Source: Streptomyces sp. NBC_01198 (GTDB lineage Bacteria > Actinomycetota > Actinomycetes > Streptomycetales > Streptomycetaceae). Taken from it: 64,000 bases of DNA. The stretch spans positions 6,556,001-6,620,000 of the forward strand of contig NZ_CP108568.1 of assembly GCF_036010485.1 (NCBI RefSeq), in the 5' to 3' direction. Below the pieces are notes generated by a model that was not told where the DNA came from, searched no databases, and was given only the letters and a program-made list of their open reading frames with translations. Below, in pieces: positions 5,544 to 15,427 of this stretch. Every line of letters begins with the position of its first letter. The first letter of the stretch is position 1. Position numbers and translations under genes: made by a program.

Positions 5544-5853
5544 CCGGCGCCTCCTTCCGGCCGGCGGGGGCGTGCCGTCCCCTGACCGGCTCTGCTGTGC
5601 TGCTCTTTCTTCGTGCGTCACCAGCCTACGTGTCCCGACAGTCACGGACCGCTGTCCGGTCGCTCTCGGTGGCGTCGCTCGTCACGGCACGTCGCAGCCG
5701 TGCAGGCCAGGTCAGGCCCGACGCCGAAGCGATATATCGAGACATCCGATCTGTTATCAACAACTTCCGGCATCCCCCTGGACGAGCACCCTCGCCCGCC
5801 GCTATACATCGGATCATCAAGAAAAGATCCGATGTCTCGCGACGGGAGTGTGC
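5544..5853 (+). promoter_or_regulatory. promoter and candidate GntR operators of the fuconate dehydratase operon
   Basis: This 310 bp gap is conspicuously AT-richer in its right half. A candidate promoter is CTGGAC at 5778-5783 and TATACA at 5803-5808 (19 bp spacing). Sequences near the palindrome ACATC-C-GATGT occur at 5742-5752 (one mismatch), 5806-5816 (three mismatches) and 5825-5835 (one mismatch). The last two also form an exact 10 bp inverted repeat (5806-5815 with 5826-5835). TATACATCGGA (5803-5813) recurs in the same orientation over the promoter of the GntR gene near 14572. Binding by that regulator is inferred. The left half, upstream of parJ, shows no recognisable element apart from its ribosome-binding site. 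Confidence 0.65.
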
Positions 5854-7170
5854 ATGAGTCCGACCATTACCGAGGTCGACGTGTACGACATCCGCTTTCC
5901 GACCTCGGAGCAGCTCGACGGCTCGGACGCCATGAACCCCGACCCCGACTACTCCGCCGCCTATGTCGTGCTCCGTACGGATTCCCCCGGCGGCCTCGCA
6001 GGGCACGGTCTGTGCTTCACGATCGGCCGCGGCAACGACGTCGTCGCAGCGGCGATCAGCACCCTGCGACCTTACGTCGTCGGACGCTCGGTGGACAGTG
6101 TCACCGGCGACCTCGGCGCCTTCTACCGGCTGCTCACCCATGACTCCCAACTCCGCTGGCTCGGCCCGGAGAAGGGCGTGATGCACATGGCGGCCGGGGC
6201 GGTGATCAACGCCGCCTGGGACCTCGCCGCCCGGGAGGCCGGCCGGCCCGTCTGGGACCTGCTGGCGTCGATGAGCCCGGACCAGCTCGTCGACCTGGTC
6301 GACTTCCGCTACCTCAGCGACGCCCTGACCCGCGACGAGGCGCTGGACATCCTGCGCCGCGCCGAACCGGGCCGGGCCGCCCGCGCCGCGACGCTGCGCA
6401 GGGACGGCTACCCCGCCTACACCACCGAGCCCGGCTGGCTCGGCTACTCCGACGAGAAGCTGACCCGGCTGGCCAAGGAGGCGGTCGCGGCCGGCTTCAC
6501 CCAGATCAAGCTCAAGGTCGGCGCCGACCTCCAGGACGACCTGCGCCGGATGCGGCTGGCCCGCGCCGCGGTCGGCCCCGACATCCGGATCGCGGTGGAC
6601 GCCAACCAGCGCTGGGACGTCGCCGAGGCCCTGGAATGGATGCGGGCACTCGCACCGCACGAGCCGTACTGGATAGAGGAGCCCACCAGCCCCGACGACG
6701 TCCTCGCGCACGCCGCGGTCCGCGCCGGGCAGCCGATCAGGGTCGCCACCGGCGAGCACGTCGCCAACCGGGTGGTCTTCAAGCAGCTGCTGCAGGCCGA
6801 CGCGGTGGACTTCGTCCAGATCGACGCCGCCCGGGTCGCCGGGGTCAACGAGAACATCGCGATCCTGCTGCTGGCCGCGAAGTTCGGCGTCCCGGTCTGC
6901 CCGCACGCCGGCGGCGTGGGCCTGTGCGAGATGGTCCAGCACCTGGCCATGTTCGACTACGTCGCGGTCTCCGGCAGCCTCGACGACCGGGTCATCGAGT
7001 ACGTGCCGCACCTGCACGAGCACTTCACCGACCCCGTCGTGGTGGAGAACGGGCGCTACCAGGCACCCTCCGCGCCCGGCTTCTCCGCCCGTATGGTGCC
7101 GGAGACATTGGCCGACTACTGCTACCCAGAAGGCCCGGTGTGGCAGGCACGACAGGAGCTGACCCGATGA
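5854..7170 (+). CDS. enolase-superfamily L-fuconate dehydratase
   Basis: The enzyme is predicted to dehydrate L-fuconate to 2-keto-3-deoxy-L-fuconate in the non-phosphorylative fucose pathway. It has 438 aa, matching the family. Hallmarks are the KxK acid/base pair in [10 protein letters not shown] (about residues 212-218), metal ligands Asp in VDANQRWD, Glu in [10 protein letters not shown] and Glu in ATGEHVANR, and the His in [11 protein letters not shown]. Start ATG 5854 follows GGGAG at 5845. Its stop overlaps the next ATG (ATGA), giving coupling to the SDR gene. A close alternative is another acid-sugar dehydratase (galactonate, rhamnonate), but the [13 protein letters not shown] segment and the neighbouring enzymes favour fuconate. 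Confidence 0.85.
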
Positions 7171-7973
7171 CCGGAACGACCACTCCCGCCGACACCGCCG
7201 CGCTCCCGCAGGACTTCGCCGGGCTGACCGCCCTGGTCACCGGCGGCGCCTCCGGGATCGGCGCCGCCACAGCGGCCCTGCTCGCCGCCCGCGGCGCCCG
7301 GGTCGCCGTCCTGGACCGGGACCCCTCGGGCGCCCCCGAGGGCACCTTCCCGGTCGCCGCGGACGTCACCTCCGACCCGCAGGTGCGCGACGCGGTGGGT
7401 GCGGCGGTGCGCGAACTCGGCGGCCTGCACATCCTGGTGAGCAACGCCGGTATCGGCTCCATCGGCACCGTCGAGGACAACTCCGACGAGGAGTGGTCCC
7501 GGGTGCTCGACGTCAACGTCCTCGGCATGGTCCGCACCGCCCGGGCGGCACTGCCCCATCTGCGCGAGGCGGCCGCCGACCGGCCGGGCAGCGCGTCGAT
7601 CACCCACACCTGCTCCATCGCCGCCACGGCGGGGCTGCCACAACGTGCCCTGTACAGCGCGAGCAAGGGCGCGGTCCTCTCGCTCACCCTGGCGATGGCC
7701 GCCGACCACGTACGCGAGGGCGTGCGGGTCAACTGCGTCAATCCCGGGACCGCCGACACCCCGTGGATCGGCCGGCTGCTCGACCAGGCCGAGGACCCGG
7801 CCGCCGAGCGCGCCGCACTGAACGCCCGCCAGCCGCTCGGCCGGCTGGTGACCGCCGACGAGGTCGCCGCGGCCATCGTCTACCTGGCCGGCCCGGCGGC
7901 GGCGAGCGTCACCGGCACCGCGCTCGCCGTGGACGGCGGAATGCAGGGCCTGCGCCTGCGCCCCGCCAACTGA
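7167..7973 (+). CDS. SDR family oxidoreductase, probable 2-keto-3-deoxy-L-fuconate dehydrogenase
   Basis: A 268 aa classical short-chain dehydrogenase. It has the nucleotide-binding [10 protein letters not shown] (about residues 26-35), the NAG motif in SNAGIGS, the catalytic Ser in TCSIAATAG and Tyr-x3-Lys in YSASKGAV, with C-terminal PGTADTPW and VDGGMQ. In the fucose pathway described in Xanthomonas, an SDR oxidises 2-keto-3-deoxy-L-fuconate to 2,4-diketo-3-deoxy-L-fuconate; position directly after the dehydratase supports that role. L-fucose dehydrogenase is the alternative, but the aldo/keto reductase downstream is a better candidate for it. Start overlaps the previous stop by 4 nt. Confidence 0.83.
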
Positions 7974-8052: not shown

Positions 8053-9090
8053 ATGAGACTGCGTAAGACGACCGTTGCCGCCATCGCGGCCCTCCTCGCG
8101 GTCACCGCGCTCGCGGGCTGCAACAGAGGCAGCGACGACAAGGCCGGCACCTCGGGCAAGGTCGGCATCGACCTGCCGCGTTCCGACAGCGACTTCTGGA
8201 ACTCCTACAACAGCTACATAGAGAAGGGTGTCAAGGCCGGCGACGTCTCCGCGCTGCCCCGCACCAACTCGCAGAACGACATCGGCAAGCTGGTCGCCAA
8301 CGTGCAGACCTTCACCGACCAGGGCGCCAAGGCGATCGTGATGGCACCGCAGGACACCGGTGCCATCGCGTCCACCCTGGACAAGCTGGCCGGCAAGAAG
8401 ATCCCGGTGATCAGCGTCGACACCCGCCCCGACAAGGGCAAGGTCTACATGGTGGTGCGCGCCGACAACAAGGCGTACGGCATCAAAGCCTGCGAGTACC
8501 TGGGCAAGCAGCTCGGCGGCAAGGGCAAGGTCGTGGAGTTCGAGGGCGCCCTCGACTCGATCAACGGCCGTGACCGCTCGGAGGCGTTCGCGTCCTGCAT
8601 GAAGGACAAGTACCCCGGCATCAAGGTGATCGCGCTGGCCACCGACTGGAAGGGCGACGTGGCGTCCGCGAAGCTGCAGACGACGCTGGCCTCCGACCCG
8701 GACGTCAACGGCATCTACATGCAGGCCGGCGGTGTCTTCCTGCAGCCGACCCTGGCCCTGCTCGAGCAGAAGCACCTGCTGAAGCCGCCGGGCACCCCCG
8801 GGCACATCACCATCATCTCCAACGACGGCATCCCGGACGAGTTCAAGGCGATCAAGGCGGGCCAGATCGACGCCACGGTCTCCCAGCCGGCCGACCTCTA
8901 CGCCAAGTACGCGCTGTACTACGCCAAGGCCGCGCTCGCCGGGCAGACCTTCAAGCCGGGCCCGACCGACCACAAGTCCACCATCGTGAGCATCCCCAAC
9001 GGCCTTGAGGACCAGCTGCCCGCGCCGCTGGTGACCAAGGACAACGTGGACGACCCCAGCCTGTGGGCCAACCAGCTCGGAAAGAGCTGA
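8053..9090 (+). CDS. sugar ABC transporter substrate-binding lipoprotein
   Basis: A 345 aa periplasmic-binding-protein of the RbsB/Peripla_BP_4 type. The N-terminus has a short basic segment, a hydrophobic stretch and lipobox LAGC with Cys-23. The mature part includes ALPRTNSQND, KAIVMAPQDT and a C-terminal hinge region typical for pentose/hexose binding proteins. It lies 79 nt after the SDR and 6 nt before the ATPase gene, so it belongs to the same operon. Fucose or a fucose-like deoxysugar or its acid is the inferred ligand from context. The start ATG has GAAGGG about 13 nt upstream, longer than ideal. Confidence 0.88.
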   Translation: MRLRKTTVAAIAALLAVTALAGCNRGSDDKAGTSGKVGIDLPRSDSDFWNSYNSYIEKGVKAGDVSALPRTNSQNDIGKLVANVQTFTDQGAKAIVMAPQDTGAIASTLDKLAGKKIPVISVDTRPDKGKVYMVVRADNKAYGIKACEYLGKQLGGKGKVVEFEGALDSINGRDRSEAFASCMKDKYPGIKVIALATDWKGDVASAKLQTTLASDPDVNGIYMQAGGVFLQPTLALLEQKHLLKPPGTPGHITIISNDGIPDEFKAIKAGQIDATVSQPADLYAKYALYYAKAALAGQTFKPGPTDHKSTIVSIPNGLEDQLPAPLVTKDNVDDPSLWANQLGKS

Positions 9091-9096
9091 GCGCAC

Positions 9097-10707
9097 ATGA
9101 GCAACGGTCAGGCCTCAACCCCTCCTCCCGCGGTGCACGCCGAGGGTGTCGTCAAGCGCTTCGGGCCCACCGTCGCGCTGGACCAGGTGGGCATCACCGT
9201 GGCGGTCGGCGACTCGCACGCGCTGGTCGGCCGCAACGGTGCGGGCAAGTCCACCCTGGTGTCGGTGCTGACCGGGCTGCACGCACCCGACGCGGGCCGG
9301 GTCGCCTTCCTCGGCGAACCCGCGCCCGCTCCGGGTGACACCGCCGCCTGGCAGGCCAGGGTCGCCTGCGTCTACCAGAAGTCCATGGTGGTCCCCGAGC
9401 TGACGGTCGCCGAGAACCTGTACCTCAACAGGTTCGAACGCGGCCGGATCCGCTGGTCCAAACTGCGGGCCGACGCCCGCGACCTGCTCGCCGAGTACGG
9501 CGTCGACGTCGACCCCAGCACCCGGGCCGGCGATCTCACCGTGGAGCAGGGCCAGTTCGTGGAGATCGCACGGGCGCTCTCCTTCGGCGCCCGGTTCATC
9601 ATCCTGGACGAGCCGACCGCGCAGCTCGACGCGGCCGGTATCGAGCGGCTGTTCAGCAAGCTGCGCGAACTGCAGCAGCAGGGCGTGGCGTTCCTGTTCA
9701 TCTCGCACCACCTCCAGGAGGTCTACGACCTCTGCAGCACCGTCACGGTCTACCGCGACGCCCGCCACATCCTCACCGCGCCCGTCGCGGAGCTGGACAA
9801 GGCGGACCTCGTGGCGGCCATGACGGGCGAGGCGGCGCAGGCCGCCTCCACCTGGCACGCCAAGTCCGCGGCGGCCGCCGCGAGTTCCGCCGCGGCCACC
9901 GGCGGGTCCGGGGCGGCGGGGGAGTCCCCCGACAGGCCCGCGGAGCCGTCGGACGGCGCGGTGCTGCGGGCCGAGGCGCTCGCTCTGGAGGGCGCCTTCC
10001 AGCCGATCGACTTCGCGGTGGCCGCCGGCGAGGTCCTCGGCCTGGCCGGCGCCACCGCCAGCGGCAACACCGCGCTCGGCGAGACGCTGGTGGGCCTGCG
10101 CAAGGCCACCGGCGGCCGGGCGTCGGTGGACGGCAGGGGCGTACGCCCGGGCAGCGTGCCGCACGCGCTGAACGCCGGCATCGGCTACGTCCCCGAGGAC
10201 CGGCACCGGCAGGGCCTGGTGCTGGGCCGCAGCGTGGCGGAGAACGCCACGCTCACCGTGACCGACCAGCTGGGCCCGTACGGCACCGTGTTGCCGTCGC
10301 GGACCCGTACGTTCGCCCAGCGGATGATCGACTCGCTGGACATCAAGACCTCGGGGCCCGCCCAGTCGGTCTCCGACCTGTCGGGCGGGAACCAGCAGAA
10401 GGTCGTCATCGCGCGGGCGCTGGCCCGCGACCCGCGGGTGCTGGTGGCCATCCGGCCGACCGCGGGCGTCGACGTGAAGTCCAAGGACGCGCTGCTCGGC
10501 GTGGTCCGCGGGGTGGCCGACCGGGGCGACGCGGCCGTCATCGTCTCCGACGAGCTCGACGACCTGCGGGTCTGCGACCGGGTGATCGCGCTCTTCCACG
10601 GACGGGTGATCGCCGAGTTCGGCAGCGGATGGACCGACCGGGACCTGGTCTCGGCGATGGAAGGGCTGCCCGCGGGCGCGGGCGGCGACAAGGGAGCCGA
10701 GGAATGA
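9097..10707 (+). CDS. sugar ABC transporter ATP-binding protein, two nucleotide-binding domains
   Basis: A 536 aa tandem ATPase of the RbsA/MglA family. The first domain has an intact Walker A (GRNGAGKS, residues 45-52) and Walker B (FIILDEPTAQLD), with a divergent signature LTVEQGQ. The second, after an Ala/Gly/Ser-rich linker (about residues 253-280), keeps the signature LSGGNQQK but lacks a normal Walker A (GATASGNTALG) and its Walker B reads VLVAIRPTAGVDV, without the Asp and catalytic Glu. One functional site plus one degenerate site is therefore likely; the linker is unusually low in complexity. The stop overlaps the permease start (ATGA). Confidence 0.9.
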   Translation: MSNGQASTPPPAVHAEGVVKRFGPTVALDQVGITVAVGDSHALVGRNGAGKSTLVSVLTGLHAPDAGRVAFLGEPAPAPGDTAAWQARVACVYQKSMVVPELTVAENLYLNRFERGRIRWSKLRADARDLLAEYGVDVDPSTRAGDLTVEQGQFVEIARALSFGARFIILDEPTAQLDAAGIERLFSKLRELQQQGVAFLFISHHLQEVYDLCSTVTVYRDARHILTAPVAELDKADLVAAMTGEAAQAASTWHAKSAAAAASSAAATGGSGAAGESPDRPAEPSDGAVLRAEALALEGAFQPIDFAVAAGEVLGLAGATASGNTALGETLVGLRKATGGRASVDGRGVRPGSVPHALNAGIGYVPEDRHRQGLVLGRSVAENATLTVTDQLGPYGTVLPSRTRTFAQRMIDSLDIKTSGPAQSVSDLSGGNQQKVVIARALARDPRVLVAIRPTAGVDVKSKDALLGVVRGVADRGDAAVIVSDELDDLRVCDRVIALFHGRVIAEFGSGWTDRDLVSAMEGLPAGAGGDKGAEE

Positions 10708-11741
10708 GTGAGACCACCGAGTTGAGCGCCGACCTGGCCGTATCCGGCAAACCCCGCCCAGCGGCGCCGCGCTTCCAGCTCAGCCGCTACCGCGACCTGT
10801 CGCTGATCCCGGTGATCCTGGTCCTGGGCGTCATCGGCTTCATCGTGTCGCCGGTGTTCCTGACCTCGGACAACCTGATCGGCGTGCTCCAGCAGAGCAG
10901 CGAGCTGAGCCTGCTGGTGCTCGCCGAGGCGCTGATCCTGATATGCGGCCGGATGGACCTCTCGCTGGAGTCCACCATCGGTGTCGCGCCGGTCATCGCG
11001 ATGTGGCTGGTGCTGCCCAGCAGCGGCCCCGCCACCTTCCACGGCATCGGGCTCTTCCCGACCTGGTCCTCGATCCCGGTCTGCCTGGTGGTGGGCCTGG
11101 TCATCGGCGCCGTCAACGGCTTCCTGATCCTCAAGCTGCGGGTCAACGGCTTCATCGCCACCCTCGGCATGCTGACCATGCTGCGCGGCCTGCAGGACGG
11201 CGTCGCGCAGGGCAAGTCGATCGTGGCGGTGCCGTCGTCCTTCTCCTACCTGGGCAAGGCGTCCTGGTTCGGGGCGCCGGCCGCGGTGTGGATCTGCCTG
11301 ATCCTCTTCGTGATCGGCGGCCTGGCACTGGGCTACCTGCGGCACGGCAGGGCGCTGTACGCGATCGGCGGCAACACCGAGGCGGCCAGGGCGGCCGGTA
11401 TCCGGGTGGACCGGATCACCTGGATCGTGCTGGCGCTCGGCGGCCTGATCGCCGCCTTCGCCGGTGTGCTCTACGCCGGCCACTACGGCGCGATCTCCGC
11501 CACCCAGGGCGACGGCTGGATCTTCCAGGTCTTCGCCGCCACCGTCATCGGCGGGGTCAGCCTCAACGGCGGCCGGGGCACGCTCTTCGGCGCTCTCACC
11601 GGCGTGGTCAGCCTGCAACTGGTGGTGAACGTCACGACCCTTGGCGGCGTGCCGCCGCTGTGGGACAAGTTCCTCTACGGTGCCATCATCATCGTCGCCC
11701 TGATCATCTCCCGCTTCGCGAGCGGCGAGAAGCAGGACTGA
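10704..11741 (+). CDS. sugar ABC transporter permease
   Basis: A 345 aa polytopic membrane protein of the BPD_transp_2 (RbsC-like) family, with roughly nine or ten hydrophobic segments. Family signatures include GRMDLSLESTIG near residue 80, the conserved RVNGFIATLGMLTMLRG region, and AIGGNTEAARAAGI, the cytoplasmic loop that contacts the ATPase. The soluble N-terminal tail is about 30 residues. ATG 10704 overlaps the ATPase stop. It completes a three-gene importer (binding protein, double ATPase, one permease that would form a homodimer). Confidence 0.92.
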   Translation: MSETTELSADLAVSGKPRPAAPRFQLSRYRDLSLIPVILVLGVIGFIVSPVFLTSDNLIGVLQQSSELSLLVLAEALILICGRMDLSLESTIGVAPVIAMWLVLPSSGPATFHGIGLFPTWSSIPVCLVVGLVIGAVNGFLILKLRVNGFIATLGMLTMLRGLQDGVAQGKSIVAVPSSFSYLGKASWFGAPAAVWICLILFVIGGLALGYLRHGRALYAIGGNTEAARAAGIRVDRITWIVLALGGLIAAFAGVLYAGHYGAISATQGDGWIFQVFAATVIGGVSLNGGRGTLFGALTGVVSLQLVVNVTTLGGVPPLWDKFLYGAIIIVALIISRFASGEKQD

Positions 11742-11832: not shown

Positions 11833-12834
11833 ATGCCCGTACCGGCACTGCCCCGGCTCGGCCTCGGCTGCGCGCCGCTGGCCAATCTCTACCGCGCCAT
11901 CACCGACGAGGAGGCGGAGGCCACCGTGGCCGCCGCTTTCGACGCGGGGCGTCCCGTCACCTACCTCGACACCGCCCCGCACTACGGGCTGGGCCGCTCC
12001 GAGGAGCGGCTCGGCCGGGCGCTGGCCGGCCGGGACCGCTCGTCCTACTCGCTGTCCACCAAGGTGGGGCGCCGGCTGCGCGACCTCCCGGCGGGGGAGC
12101 AGCCCGACGGCCAGGGCTTCACCGACGTCCCCGGCCGGGTCAGGGTCTGGGACTTCACCGCCGACGGCATCCGGGCCACGCTGGAGGGCTCCCTGGAGCG
12201 GCTCGGCGTGGACGCCGTCGACATCGTCTACCTGCACGACGTCGAGGACCACCTGCCCGAGGTCTACGCCACCGGCTTCCCTGCGCTCGCCGAACTGCGC
12301 GACCAGGGCCTGGTCAAGGCGATCGGGTTCGGCATGAACCACAGCGACATCCTGGCCCGGCTGGTCGCCGACCTCGACGTCGACGTGGTGCTGTGCGCGG
12401 GCCGCTGGACCCTGCTGGAACGCACCGCCTACGACGACCTGCTGCCGGTGTGCGAGCGCCGCGGCACCAAGGTCGTCGTCGGCGGCGTCTACAACTCCGG
12501 CCTGCTGGCCGACCCCGGGCCCGGTGCGCACTACGACTACGCGCCCGCACCGCAGGAGTTGATCGACCGGGCGCTGGACATCGCCGCGGTCTGCGGCGAG
12601 TTCGGCGTCCCGCTGCGGGCCGCCGCGCTGCGCTACCCCTTCGCGCACCCCAGCGTGGTCTCCGCGGTCGTCGGCGCCGCGAGCCCCGAAGAAGTGCGGG
12701 ACAACGCCGCGCTGTTCGAGCACGACATCCCGGACGCGATGTGGCACGCGCTGGTCGAGCGCGGGCTGCTCGACAAGGACGTGCCGCTGCCGCTCGCGGC
12801 CGGCCTCCCGGCGACTCCCGCGGCGGGGGAGTAG
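11833..12834 (+). CDS. aldo/keto reductase, probable L-fucose (aldose) 1-dehydrogenase
   Basis: A 333 aa aldo/keto reductase with the catalytic tetrad in place: Asp and Tyr in YLDTAPHYGLG (about residues 41-51), Lys in STKVGRRL and His in VYLHDVEDH. The sequence style (LGLGCAPLANLYRAITDEEA at the start, the GFGMNHS turn) is that of the L-fucose/D-threo-aldose dehydrogenase group that oxidises the sugar to its lactone. Two bases separate its stop from the following lactonase ATG. The 91 bp gap before it holds a run of CGACCC repeats (about 11756-11790) and no terminator. The substrate is inferred from the operon. Confidence 0.82.
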   Translation: MPVPALPRLGLGCAPLANLYRAITDEEAEATVAAAFDAGRPVTYLDTAPHYGLGRSEERLGRALAGRDRSSYSLSTKVGRRLRDLPAGEQPDGQGFTDVPGRVRVWDFTADGIRATLEGSLERLGVDAVDIVYLHDVEDHLPEVYATGFPALAELRDQGLVKAIGFGMNHSDILARLVADLDVDVVLCAGRWTLLERTAYDDLLPVCERRGTKVVVGGVYNSGLLADPGPGAHYDYAPAPQELIDRALDIAAVCGEFGVPLRAAALRYPFAHPSVVSAVVGAASPEEVRDNAALFEHDIPDAMWHALVERGLLDKDVPLPLAAGLPATPAAGE

Positions 12835-12836
12835 CG

Positions 12837-13667
12837 ATGCGGATCGACGCGCACCACCACCTGTGGGACCTCACCAGGCGTCCGCAGCCCTGGCTGCACG
12901 GGGCCGCCCTGGGCCCCATCGCCCGCACCTTCGAACGGGGGGACCTCGAACCGCTGCTGCTGGCGAACGGCATCGACGCGACCGTCGTCGTGCAGTCCAG
13001 CTCGTCGCTGGACGAGACCCGCGAACTGCTGGCGCTCGCCGCCGCCTCCGGGGGGCGGATCGCCGGCGTCGTCGGCTGGGCCGACCTCACCGACCCCGCG
13101 CTCGCCGACGTCCTGGTCTCGCTGACCGGCCCGCTGGTCGGGATTCGCCACCAGGTCCAGGACGAGTCCGACCCGTGGTGGCTGGCCCGCGCCGGCGTCC
13201 GCCGCGGCCTGGCCACGGTCGCCGCGGCGGGCCTGGCGTACGACCTGCTGGTCACCCCGCGCGAGCTGCCCGCGGCGCTGGAGACGGCGGCGGCGCTGCC
13301 CGAACTGCGCTTCGTCCTCGACCACGCGGCCAAGCCGCGCATCGCCTCCGGCGGTTGGGAGCCGTGGGCCGCGGACCTCAGGGAGCTGGCCACGCTGCCG
13401 AACGTGACGTGCAAGCTGTCCGGGCTGGTGACCGAGGCCAGTTGGTCCGGCTGGAAGCCGGCCGACATCCTTCCCTACGCGCACCACGTCCTCGACGTGT
13501 TCGGCCCAGAGCGCGTGCTGTTCGGCTCCGACTGGCCGGTCTGCACACTCGCCGCCACCTACGCCGACGTGGTCGCACTGGCGGAGTCCGCCACCGCCGG
13601 CCTCTCCCCGACCGAGTCCGCATCCGTCTTCGGCACGACCGCATCCCACGTCTACGCCCTCCCCTAA
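12837..13667 (+). CDS. amidohydrolase family protein, probable L-fuconolactonase
   Basis: A 276 aa metal-dependent hydrolase of the amidohydrolase_2 family. The N-terminal RIDAHHHLWD supplies the HxH motif, VLDHAAKPRI a further His, and LFGSDWPVC the conserved Asp. Members of this subgroup hydrolyse fuconolactone, rhamnonolactone or related lactones. It fits between the aldose dehydrogenase and the fuconate dehydratase in the pathway. The ATG starts 2 nt after the previous stop, with the GGGGGAG of the upstream gene's end serving as ribosome-binding site. It appears to be the last gene of the operon; a repeat pair follows. Confidence 0.85.
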   Translation: MRIDAHHHLWDLTRRPQPWLHGAALGPIARTFERGDLEPLLLANGIDATVVVQSSSSLDETRELLALAAASGGRIAGVVGWADLTDPALADVLVSLTGPLVGIRHQVQDESDPWWLARAGVRRGLATVAAAGLAYDLLVTPRELPAALETAAALPELRFVLDHAAKPRIASGGWEPWAADLRELATLPNVTCKLSGLVTEASWSGWKPADILPYAHHVLDVFGPERVLFGSDWPVCTLAATYADVVALAESATAGLSPTESASVFGTTASHVYALP

Positions 13668-13857: not shown

Positions 13858-14529
13858 CTACAGGGTGGAGCGGAGCCATTGTTCGACGCTGGCGACGTGG
13901 ACCGTCGCCCAGGCCCGCGCGGCCTCGGCGTCGCGATCCCTGAGCGCGCTCAGGATCGCCCGGTGCTCGTGCAGCGTCCGCGACACCGCGTCCTCCTGCG
14001 TGAGGCCGCGCCAGACGCGCGCGCGGGTCGTGGGGCCCGACAGGCCGTCCAGCAGGGAGCACAGCACCGAATTGCCCGAGCCCTGCACGATGCCGCGGTG
14101 GAACTCCAGGTCGGAGGCGACCAGTTCCTCCACCGACGGCTCCGGCCCGAGCGCGTCGAGCTTGCCCTCCAGGACGTCGAGCTCGTCCTCCGGGATGCGG
14201 ATCGCCGCCATCGCGGTGGCGGCCGGCTCCAGGATGCGGCGCACGGCCAGGAACTCGAGCACCGTGTCGTCGCGGTGGAAGTCCACCACGAAGCTCAGCG
14301 CTTCGAGCAGCAGTTGCGGGTCGAGGCTGGTGACGTACGTGCCGTCGCCCTGCCGGACGTCGAGGATGCGGATCAGCGACAGCGCCCGTACCGCCTCGCG
14401 CAGCGAGTTGCGGGACAGACCCAGCTCGGCCGCCAGCTCGCTCTCCTTGGGGAGCCGGTCACCGGGCCGCAGCGCCCCGGAGACGATCATCTCCTTGATC
14501 TTCTCGATCGCCTCGTCGGTGACCGCCAT
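13858..14529 (-). CDS. GntR family regulator, FCD (FadR-like) subgroup
   Basis: A 223 aa regulator. The N-terminal winged helix contains GALRPGDRLPKESELAAELG and SRNSLREAVRALS (residues about 15-55), followed by the RQGDGTYV wing. The C-terminal FCD all-helical effector domain has the metal/ligand-binding residues in SDLEFHRGIV and LHEHRAIL. ATG 14529 is preceded by GGGGAGGG, making it preferable to an upstream in-frame extension of 28 residues. It is convergent to the fucose operon and the obvious local regulator; the operator-like motif in its own promoter, shared with the dehydratase promoter, suggests autoregulation. Sugar-acid effectors are typical for the family. Confidence 0.88.
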   Translation of the reverse strand: MAVTDEAIEKIKEMIVSGALRPGDRLPKESELAAELGLSRNSLREAVRALSLIRILDVRQGDGTYVTSLDPQLLLEALSFVVDFHRDDTVLEFLAVRRILEPAATAMAAIRIPEDELDVLEGKLDALGPEPSVEELVASDLEFHRGIVQGSGNSVLCSLLDGLSGPTTRARVWRGLTQEDAVSRTLHEHRAILSALRDRDAEAARAWATVHVASVEQWLRSTL

Positions 14530-14568: not shown

Positions 14569-14582
14569 ACCTCCGATGTATA
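14569..14582 (-). promoter_or_regulatory. candidate GntR operator over its own promoter
   Basis: Bases 14569-14579 read ACCTCCGATGT, one mismatch from the palindrome ACATC-C-GATGT found before the fuconate dehydratase gene. Read in the direction of the regulator gene, TATACATCGGA (14582-14572) is identical to 5803-5813, including a TATACA that could be the -10. It lies about 45 bp upstream of the start codon. Confidence 0.6.
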
Positions 14583-14629
14583 CCCTCATTATGTGCCCGG
14601 GAGGCCCGATCACCTAACGAAACGGGAAT

Positions 14630-15427
14630 TCAGCGACCTGCGTATCTGCTGGGCGGCGCGCCGACCGCGGCGGTGAAGTCCCGGGTCAGATGCGCCTGGT
14701 CGGCGTAGCCGAGATCCGCGGCGAGCGCCGCCCAGTCGATGCCGGCCCCCGCGTCGGCGCGCGCGGCGGCCTCGTGCAGCCGCGCCCTGCGCAGCACCCA
14801 CTTCGGCGAGGCGCCGACGTATTCGGCGAAGAGCCGTTGCAGCCGGCGTACCGGCATGTCCAGCTCGCGGGCCAGCTCGTCCACCCGGAAGAGCTGCGGG
14901 CGGGCGGTGATCGCCTCGACCAGCCCGGCGACCTCGGCGACCTGCGGGTCGGGGTCAAGCGCCGGCAGCAGGCCGAGTAGGAAGCCGTCGGCGTGCGCGG
15001 CCATCGCCGCCAGGCCGTCCAGCGCCAGCACCTGCCGGCCCACCTCGGCCACCCCGGCTCCGAAGATGTCGGCGGCCGGGACTGCGCGGTCGGCGAGGTC
15101 GGCCACCGGGCCCAGGGCGAAGGGCCGGAAGGCCCCCGGCCGGAACTTCACCCCGAAGACCTGCCCCGCACCCGCCAGCCGCCGCACGAACAGCCCGCGC
15201 TGGACCCCGTAGACCAGCGCGCCCCGCGGCTCGAAGACCAGGTGCACGTTCGGGTGCGCGAGCACCTTCTGCTCGTACGGGTCGCGCCCGCGCAGGTCCC
15301 AGCGGGGGTTCCAGTAGCCGTCCACCAGGGCGGCGAGGCCGGGCGCCGCCGCCTGCCGCCGCACGTCGAGGAAGCCGGCCGACTCGTCAGGCCGCAGGAC
15401 TCCGCGGCCCAAGTCGTGCATGCTCAT
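14630..15427 (-). CDS. AraC family transcriptional regulator
   Basis: A 265 aa protein with an N-terminal sensor domain of the DUF6597 type (residues about 1-150; VLAHPNVHLVFEPRG and VFGVKFRPGAFRPF are visible) and a C-terminal AraC helix-turn-helix pair (about 165-260). The latter contains DELARELDMPVRRLQRLFAE and LGYADQAHLTRDFTAAVG, the expected second helix-turn-helix. It is divergent from the TIGR03086 gene (65 bp between starts) and may control it. The effector is unknown. It does not share the orientation or motif of the fucose operon. Confidence 0.9.
   Translation of the reverse strand: MSMHDLGRGVLRPDESAGFLDVRRQAAAPGLAALVDGYWNPRWDLRGRDPYEQKVLAHPNVHLVFEPRGALVYGVQRGLFVRRLAGAGQVFGVKFRPGAFRPFALGPVADLADRAVPAADIFGAGVAEVGRQVLALDGLAAMAAHADGFLLGLLPALDPDPQVAEVAGLVEAITARPQLFRVDELARELDMPVRRLQRLFAEYVGASPKWVLRRARLHEAAARADAGAGIDWAALAADLGYADQAHLTRDFTAAVGAPPSRYAGR

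Follow-up and report, generated by a model that had tools for sequence, protein, structure and literature searches.

The window (the whole stretch of 64 kb that was analysed) contains a cluster of forward-strand genes whose predicted products point to an operon for the oxidative (non-phosphorylating) L-fucose pathway. Its first gene, fucD (5854-7170), encodes an L-fuconate dehydratase, with best structural matches to 2hne and 1yey (E ∼1e-207; 5e-207 to 2hne, a solved L-fuconate dehydratase). It is followed by an SDR dehydrogenase gene at 7167-7973 (a candidate L-2-keto-3-deoxyfuconate 4-dehydrogenase, assigned at the family level only, the specific function being taken from context); genes for the substrate-binding protein (8053-9090), ATPase (9097-10707), and permease (10704-11741) of a sugar ABC transporter; an aldo/keto reductase gene at 11833-12834 (a candidate L-fucose dehydrogenase, also at the family level only); and an amidohydrolase gene at 12831-13667 that is nearest to L-fucono-1,5-lactonase (NF052480, 225 bits, below the cut-off of 400). 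Among the operon genes there is no obvious one for a 2,4-diketo-3-deoxyfuconate hydrolase (FucG-type) or an aldolase. Oxidative L-fucose routes give pyruvate together with L-lactate or L-lactaldehyde (PMC11199699).

Convergent with the operon is a reverse-strand gene (13858-14529; start codon ATG at 14527-14529) for an FCD-GntR regulator, here named FucR. The protein starts almost at an N-terminal GntR winged helix-turn-helix (HTH; PF00392, 3.8e-19) and has a C-terminal FCD domain (PF07729, 2.7e-25), both above the cut-off. Its PDB relatives include 6az6, 7c7e, and 2di3; an Asp-x3-His pattern and two later histidines align with the metal site of 6az6 and 2di3, according to sequence alignment alone. 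Just upstream of fucR, in the same direction, lies a gene for an AraC-type regulator with a DUF6597 domain (14630-15427, reverse strand); in many other fucR loci a different sequence takes its place.

Both promoters contain variants of the palindrome ACATCnGATGT. The sequence-only reading had listed three variants with one mismatch each, and all three are present in the sequence: ACATCCGATCT at 5742-5752, AGATCCGATGT at 5825-5835, and ACCTCCGATGT at 14569-14579. These are the only sites in the window with at most one mismatch (3 versus 0.67 expected in 64 kb; 2 of 100 shuffled windows reached three); a fourth site, ACATCGGATCA at 5806-5816, has two mismatches. An 11-mer, TATACATCGGA, said to be identical and in the same orientation relative to transcription in both promoters, is indeed found at 5803-5813 (forward strand) and 14572-14582 (reverse strand), and nowhere else in the window (two copies versus 0.11 expected; none of 100 shuffles). 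A matrix trained on other species only, with the closest relatives excluded, gives the four sites at 5742, 5806, 5825, and 14569 the top four places in the window (in order of rank, 24.0, 22.8, 21.9, and 11.3 bits; the next match scores 6.4). A pattern with two central bases was rejected (the spacing is wrong and its matches are noise), and a reversed-pattern control was left unused, being unfair for such codon-rich letters. By themselves, the counts are suggestive, not decisive: they are only mildly above expectation, and parts of the motif are common in this genome on account of codons such as ATC and GAT, as one would expect if the sites were matches to chance or GC context without function. 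The case for operators rests instead on the position and conservation of the sites, and these, together with the first rank of the motif among 1024 and its co-variation with the regulator (see below), leave the chance explanation with a negligible probability.

The dehydratase promoter has three sites arranged around a conserved core. The −35 element TGGACG (5779-5784) is separated by an 18-bp spacer from the −10 element TATACA (5803-5808), and TGGAC, the spacer length, and TATACA are constant in all 50 promoters that were measured. The −10 element overlaps the operator at 5806-5816, which had been called the weaker site; it is degenerate in the window, with its two mismatches, but across species it is the best conserved of the three dehydratase sites. 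Its sequence TATACATCGG is kept in 73 promoters, all preceding fucD, and in other species the operator reads ACATCGGATGA or ACATCGGATGT. The promoter pattern as a whole has at most two matches per genome, and 73 of the 73 promoters checked precede fucD. The downstream operator (5825-5835) is inverted relative to the −10 operator, with its center 19 bp away; this spacing is 16-20 bp in all promoters that have the site, 19 being the commonest value. The distal operator (5742-5752) is the core of a 12-mer, CATCCGATCTGT, at 5743-5754. Each of these operators in the window combines one good half with one poor half, so that co-operation between them would be useful. In 13 other loci, palindromes are found ∼900-1000 bp before the dehydratase gene, in several of them as pairs ∼60 bp apart; presumably the operon starts with another gene in these loci, and the palindromes lie at it.

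The fucR promoter has a single operator at 14569-14579, ACATCGGAGGT in the reading direction of the gene, which is kept in 30 of 30 genomes of the genus and is an exact palindrome in most other genera. The sequence-only reading placed TATACATCGGA over a possible −10 element in both promoters. This holds for the dehydratase promoter, where TATACA is a credible such element; in the regulator promoter, however, the conserved −10 element is CATAAT (14588-14593, reverse strand), five bases further upstream, and since the −10 element lies there, the 11-mer overlaps a −10 element at the dehydratase only. The fucR operator instead covers the expected transcription start.

We compared the motif with the identity of the neighboring regulator in 80 loci of other genomes that contain the dehydratase gene. 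Where the GntR protein shares at least 60% identity with FucR, the palindrome is mostly present upstream of its gene, and often exact; where the identity is about 50%, it is not. Upstream of the FucR orthologues, which come from at least five actinobacterial families, ACATCnGATGT ranks first among 1024 palindromic half-sites, with exact copies in 18 of 31 cases and copies with at most one mismatch in 26 of 31 (the means over all palindromes are 0.04 and 0.36, respectively); its rank is likewise first before lutA, the GH141-like genes, and fucD. Relatives with an arginine at HTH position 28 have the canonical TGGTCnGACCA instead (14 of 14), and the contrast in ACATC between the FucR clade and relatives below 60% identity is significant (p = 1.5e-11). 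In the FucR clade, whose members come from Streptomycetaceae, Micromonosporaceae, Streptosporangiaceae, Pseudonocardiaceae, and Micrococcaceae, this position is serine, alanine, or lysine. Because the motif is swapped where the regulator is swapped for a relative, co-variation identifies FucR as the cognate regulator.

The motif could in principle belong to another regulator, and the genome encodes both the AraC-like protein (14630-15427) and a GntR paralogue that shares 50% identity with FucR. The paralogue gene (1099244-1099909, within the examined locus 1096500-1103500) adjoins a gene for lactate racemase (LarA); its clade has proline or glutamine at HTH position 28, and the loci of this clade hold ACATSCCATGT-like sites. 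Matrix matches in these loci share the ACAT half with the FucR palindrome; we considered counting them as false positives and rejected this, as they look like the clade's own sites. The apparent motif of the paralogue has a different center, however, and ACATCnGATGT shows no enrichment upstream of the genes of that clade, whereas fucR orthologues of many genera have it upstream, in varied neighborhoods. In addition, the presence of the lutA site described below tracks FucR. We therefore regard another regulator as very improbable, and retain FucR as the protein that would bind these sites.

The shift in the operator agrees with the published specificity code. Operators of the FadR subfamily share a GT-N(2-3)-AC core, and an arginine at the position in question favors the G/C pair in TKGT/ACMA boxes and disfavors A/T (PMC4494728). 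HTH position 28 aligns with Arg35 of Escherichia coli FadR, and a core in which AT has replaced GT, in a clade that no longer has this arginine, fits that code. FucR thus differs from the subfamily both in its core, AT-C-N-G-AT, and in lacking the usual arginine. The typical GT-N3-AC core is absent from ACATCnGATGT, but this leaves membership of the subfamily intact, since the same study itself lists exceptions (NanR and BioR; PMC4494728).

A genome scan for the motif, proposed as a test by the sequence-only reading, marks the genes of one pathway rather than a random scatter. Exact matches to ACATC[CG]GATGT number three in the 7.9-Mb genome, and two of them lie in promoters. One lies 134 bases before the gene for a secreted beta-helix protein related to BT_1002, which is a GH141 alpha-L-fucosidase and bears the name of a glycoside hydrolase in the PDB; the secreted protein is here called GH141-like. 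The other lies 100 bases before lutA of lutABC (L-lactate use). The third exact site, at 2654310 between the genes for malic enzyme and a convergent thioredoxin-like protein, was judged to be a chance match, as was ACATCGGATCT at 250389. A GH29 alpha-L-fucosidase gene lies ∼7 kb beyond the window (start at about 6,627,567, minus strand, in locus 6624994-6628938); its product has a Tat-like signal, and its promoter resembles that of fucD (TGGAC ... TATACAT-TCATCCGATGT), with the site 52 bases before the start, so that this gene is likely a further FucR target. No site was found at the second GH29 gene (1031597).

Within the genus, 30 of 30 genomes have the fucR site, 30 of 30 have at least one fucD site, and 27 of 30 have the lutA site, although these counts are not phylogenetically independent. 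In other Streptomycetaceae, a lutA palindrome with at most two mismatches is found in 18 of 20 genomes with FucR versus 1 of 20 without it (p = 3e-8, ignoring shared ancestry). Since the L-fucose pathway can yield L-lactate (PMC11199699), a regulon that includes lutABC makes up one pathway. In another genome (G018, contig C99, 20148-23277), a lutA homologue adjoins a second gene for L-fuconate dehydratase, which is another link between the use of L-fucose and that of L-lactate. Our literature search, which covered few subscription journals, found nothing on this operator or regulon, and the motif string itself retrieved unrelated papers only, apparently as primer sequences.

The orthologue ranking, the co-variation, the regulon, and the distribution of the lutA site together bear out the earlier proposal of a candidate operator for the FCD-GntR protein. 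We consider it highly probable, from these sequence comparisons, that the palindromes are operators of FucR over its own gene, the fuc operon, and the remote fucosidase and lutABC genes.

The distal site of the dehydratase promoter is positioned by the turn of the helix. The 12-mer at this site, CATCCGANCTGT, is found a single time in 7.9 Mb of genome, and among the 1.64 Mb of the 80 related loci it is confined to the promoters of fuc operons. The −10 operator (at 5806 in the window) lies 63-66 bp from it in 46 promoters, 74-75 bp in 16, 77 bp in two (belonging to one clade), and 85-86 bp in three, with no spacings between these classes; the classes of 63-66, 74-75, and 85-86 bp correspond to six, seven, and eight helical turns. 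A single outlier at 168 bp is probably a match by chance and was excluded. On the fucD tree, the spacing changed independently about seven times, each time by close to 10.5 or 21 bp (p = 0.0006 for a simulated V-statistic, with uniform lengths as the null), so the action of the distal site would seem to be tied to the helical face on which it lies. Such phasing would fit looping or contact between dimers, or else contact with RNA polymerase. Outside the clade of the window, the distal sequence (TCATCCGAGCT) is a poor match to the palindrome; it could be bound by some other protein, and the binder of this site is thus less certain than that of the others.

Contact with RNA polymerase would also suit a FucR that is an activator or has a dual role, with the distal site at about −68 activating from the right face of the helix and the proximal sites tuning expression; FadR can activate or repress according to position, and HypR may do the same (PMC6608401). 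We find this unlikely, given that two of the three fucD sites cover the −10 element and the early transcribed region, the fucR site covers the start, and the GH29 and GH141-like sites sit at −10. Sites over a −10 element or a start are repressor positions, and we retain repression as the probable mode.

FucR would be a GntR/FCD sugar-acid regulator of a well-known type, in which the shifted operator core and the phased three-site promoter are apparently new. As in other members of the FCD group of the FadR subfamily (LldR, NanR, PdhR, DgoR, HypR), a GntR HTH is joined to an FCD domain, and in the alignment FucR has candidate metal-site residues in the same pattern (Asp-x3-His, His, His); palindromic operators, self-regulation, and control of a sugar-acid pathway are further predicted likenesses. 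HypR of Streptomyces coelicolor is an FCD-GntR repressor of a catabolic operon, as FucR would be, and its own site covers the −10 element, but its motif, CTNTGC(A/C)ATGTCAC, has no clear palindrome and its pathway is that of hydroxyproline (PMC6608401). Similar to FucR, NanR of E. coli and AraR of Bacillus subtilis have a GntR-type DNA-binding domain and several operators per promoter. The effector domain of AraR differs from that of FucR. Binding by NanR is co-operative, and DNA looping by AraR is named in the title of a reference in PMC8012715. NanR works with adjoining direct repeats of GGTATA and has an N-terminal extension (PMC8012715); the FucR chain begins close to its HTH. The FucR of Halomonas and relatives has its name and the oxidative L-fucose pathway in common with the regulator described here, and predicted sites in the fuc loci as well, while the genes and transporters of those loci differ from those of the operon in the window (PMC5507952).

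Our comparisons support the sites, their positions, the cognate regulator, the membership of the regulon, and the helical phasing; from them we infer direct binding, repression rather than activation, co-operation or looping of dimers, and an inducer, in the following scheme. At the dehydratase promoter, in the absence of inducer, FucR dimers would occupy the −10 operator and the second operator about two turns downstream, aided by the third, helically phased site six turns upstream, and FucR would sit on one operator over the start of its own gene. The L-fucose operon, fucR, the two alpha-L-fucosidase genes, and lutABC would thereby be kept off, until an acid of the pathway formed from L-fucose, most likely L-fuconate, binds the FCD domain and FucR is released. 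To the combined picture, in which the half-site changed from TGGTC to ACATC with the loss of Arg at HTH position 28, FucR represses through a complex of three operators in which the distal one touches the proximal dimers over a loop of six, seven, or eight turns, and a single regulon joins fucose release by secreted fucosidases, fucose breakdown, and use of the resulting L-lactate across Actinomycetes, we give even odds.

FucR and its relatives differ at HTH position 28 and at exactly the base pair that this position is reported to read, so that the published GntR specificity code could be tested on natural variants. Similarly, the turn-by-turn series of spacings is a natural evolutionary experiment on the co-operation of operators. 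For Streptomyces-like soil bacteria, the analysis provides a concrete, testable L-fucose regulon.
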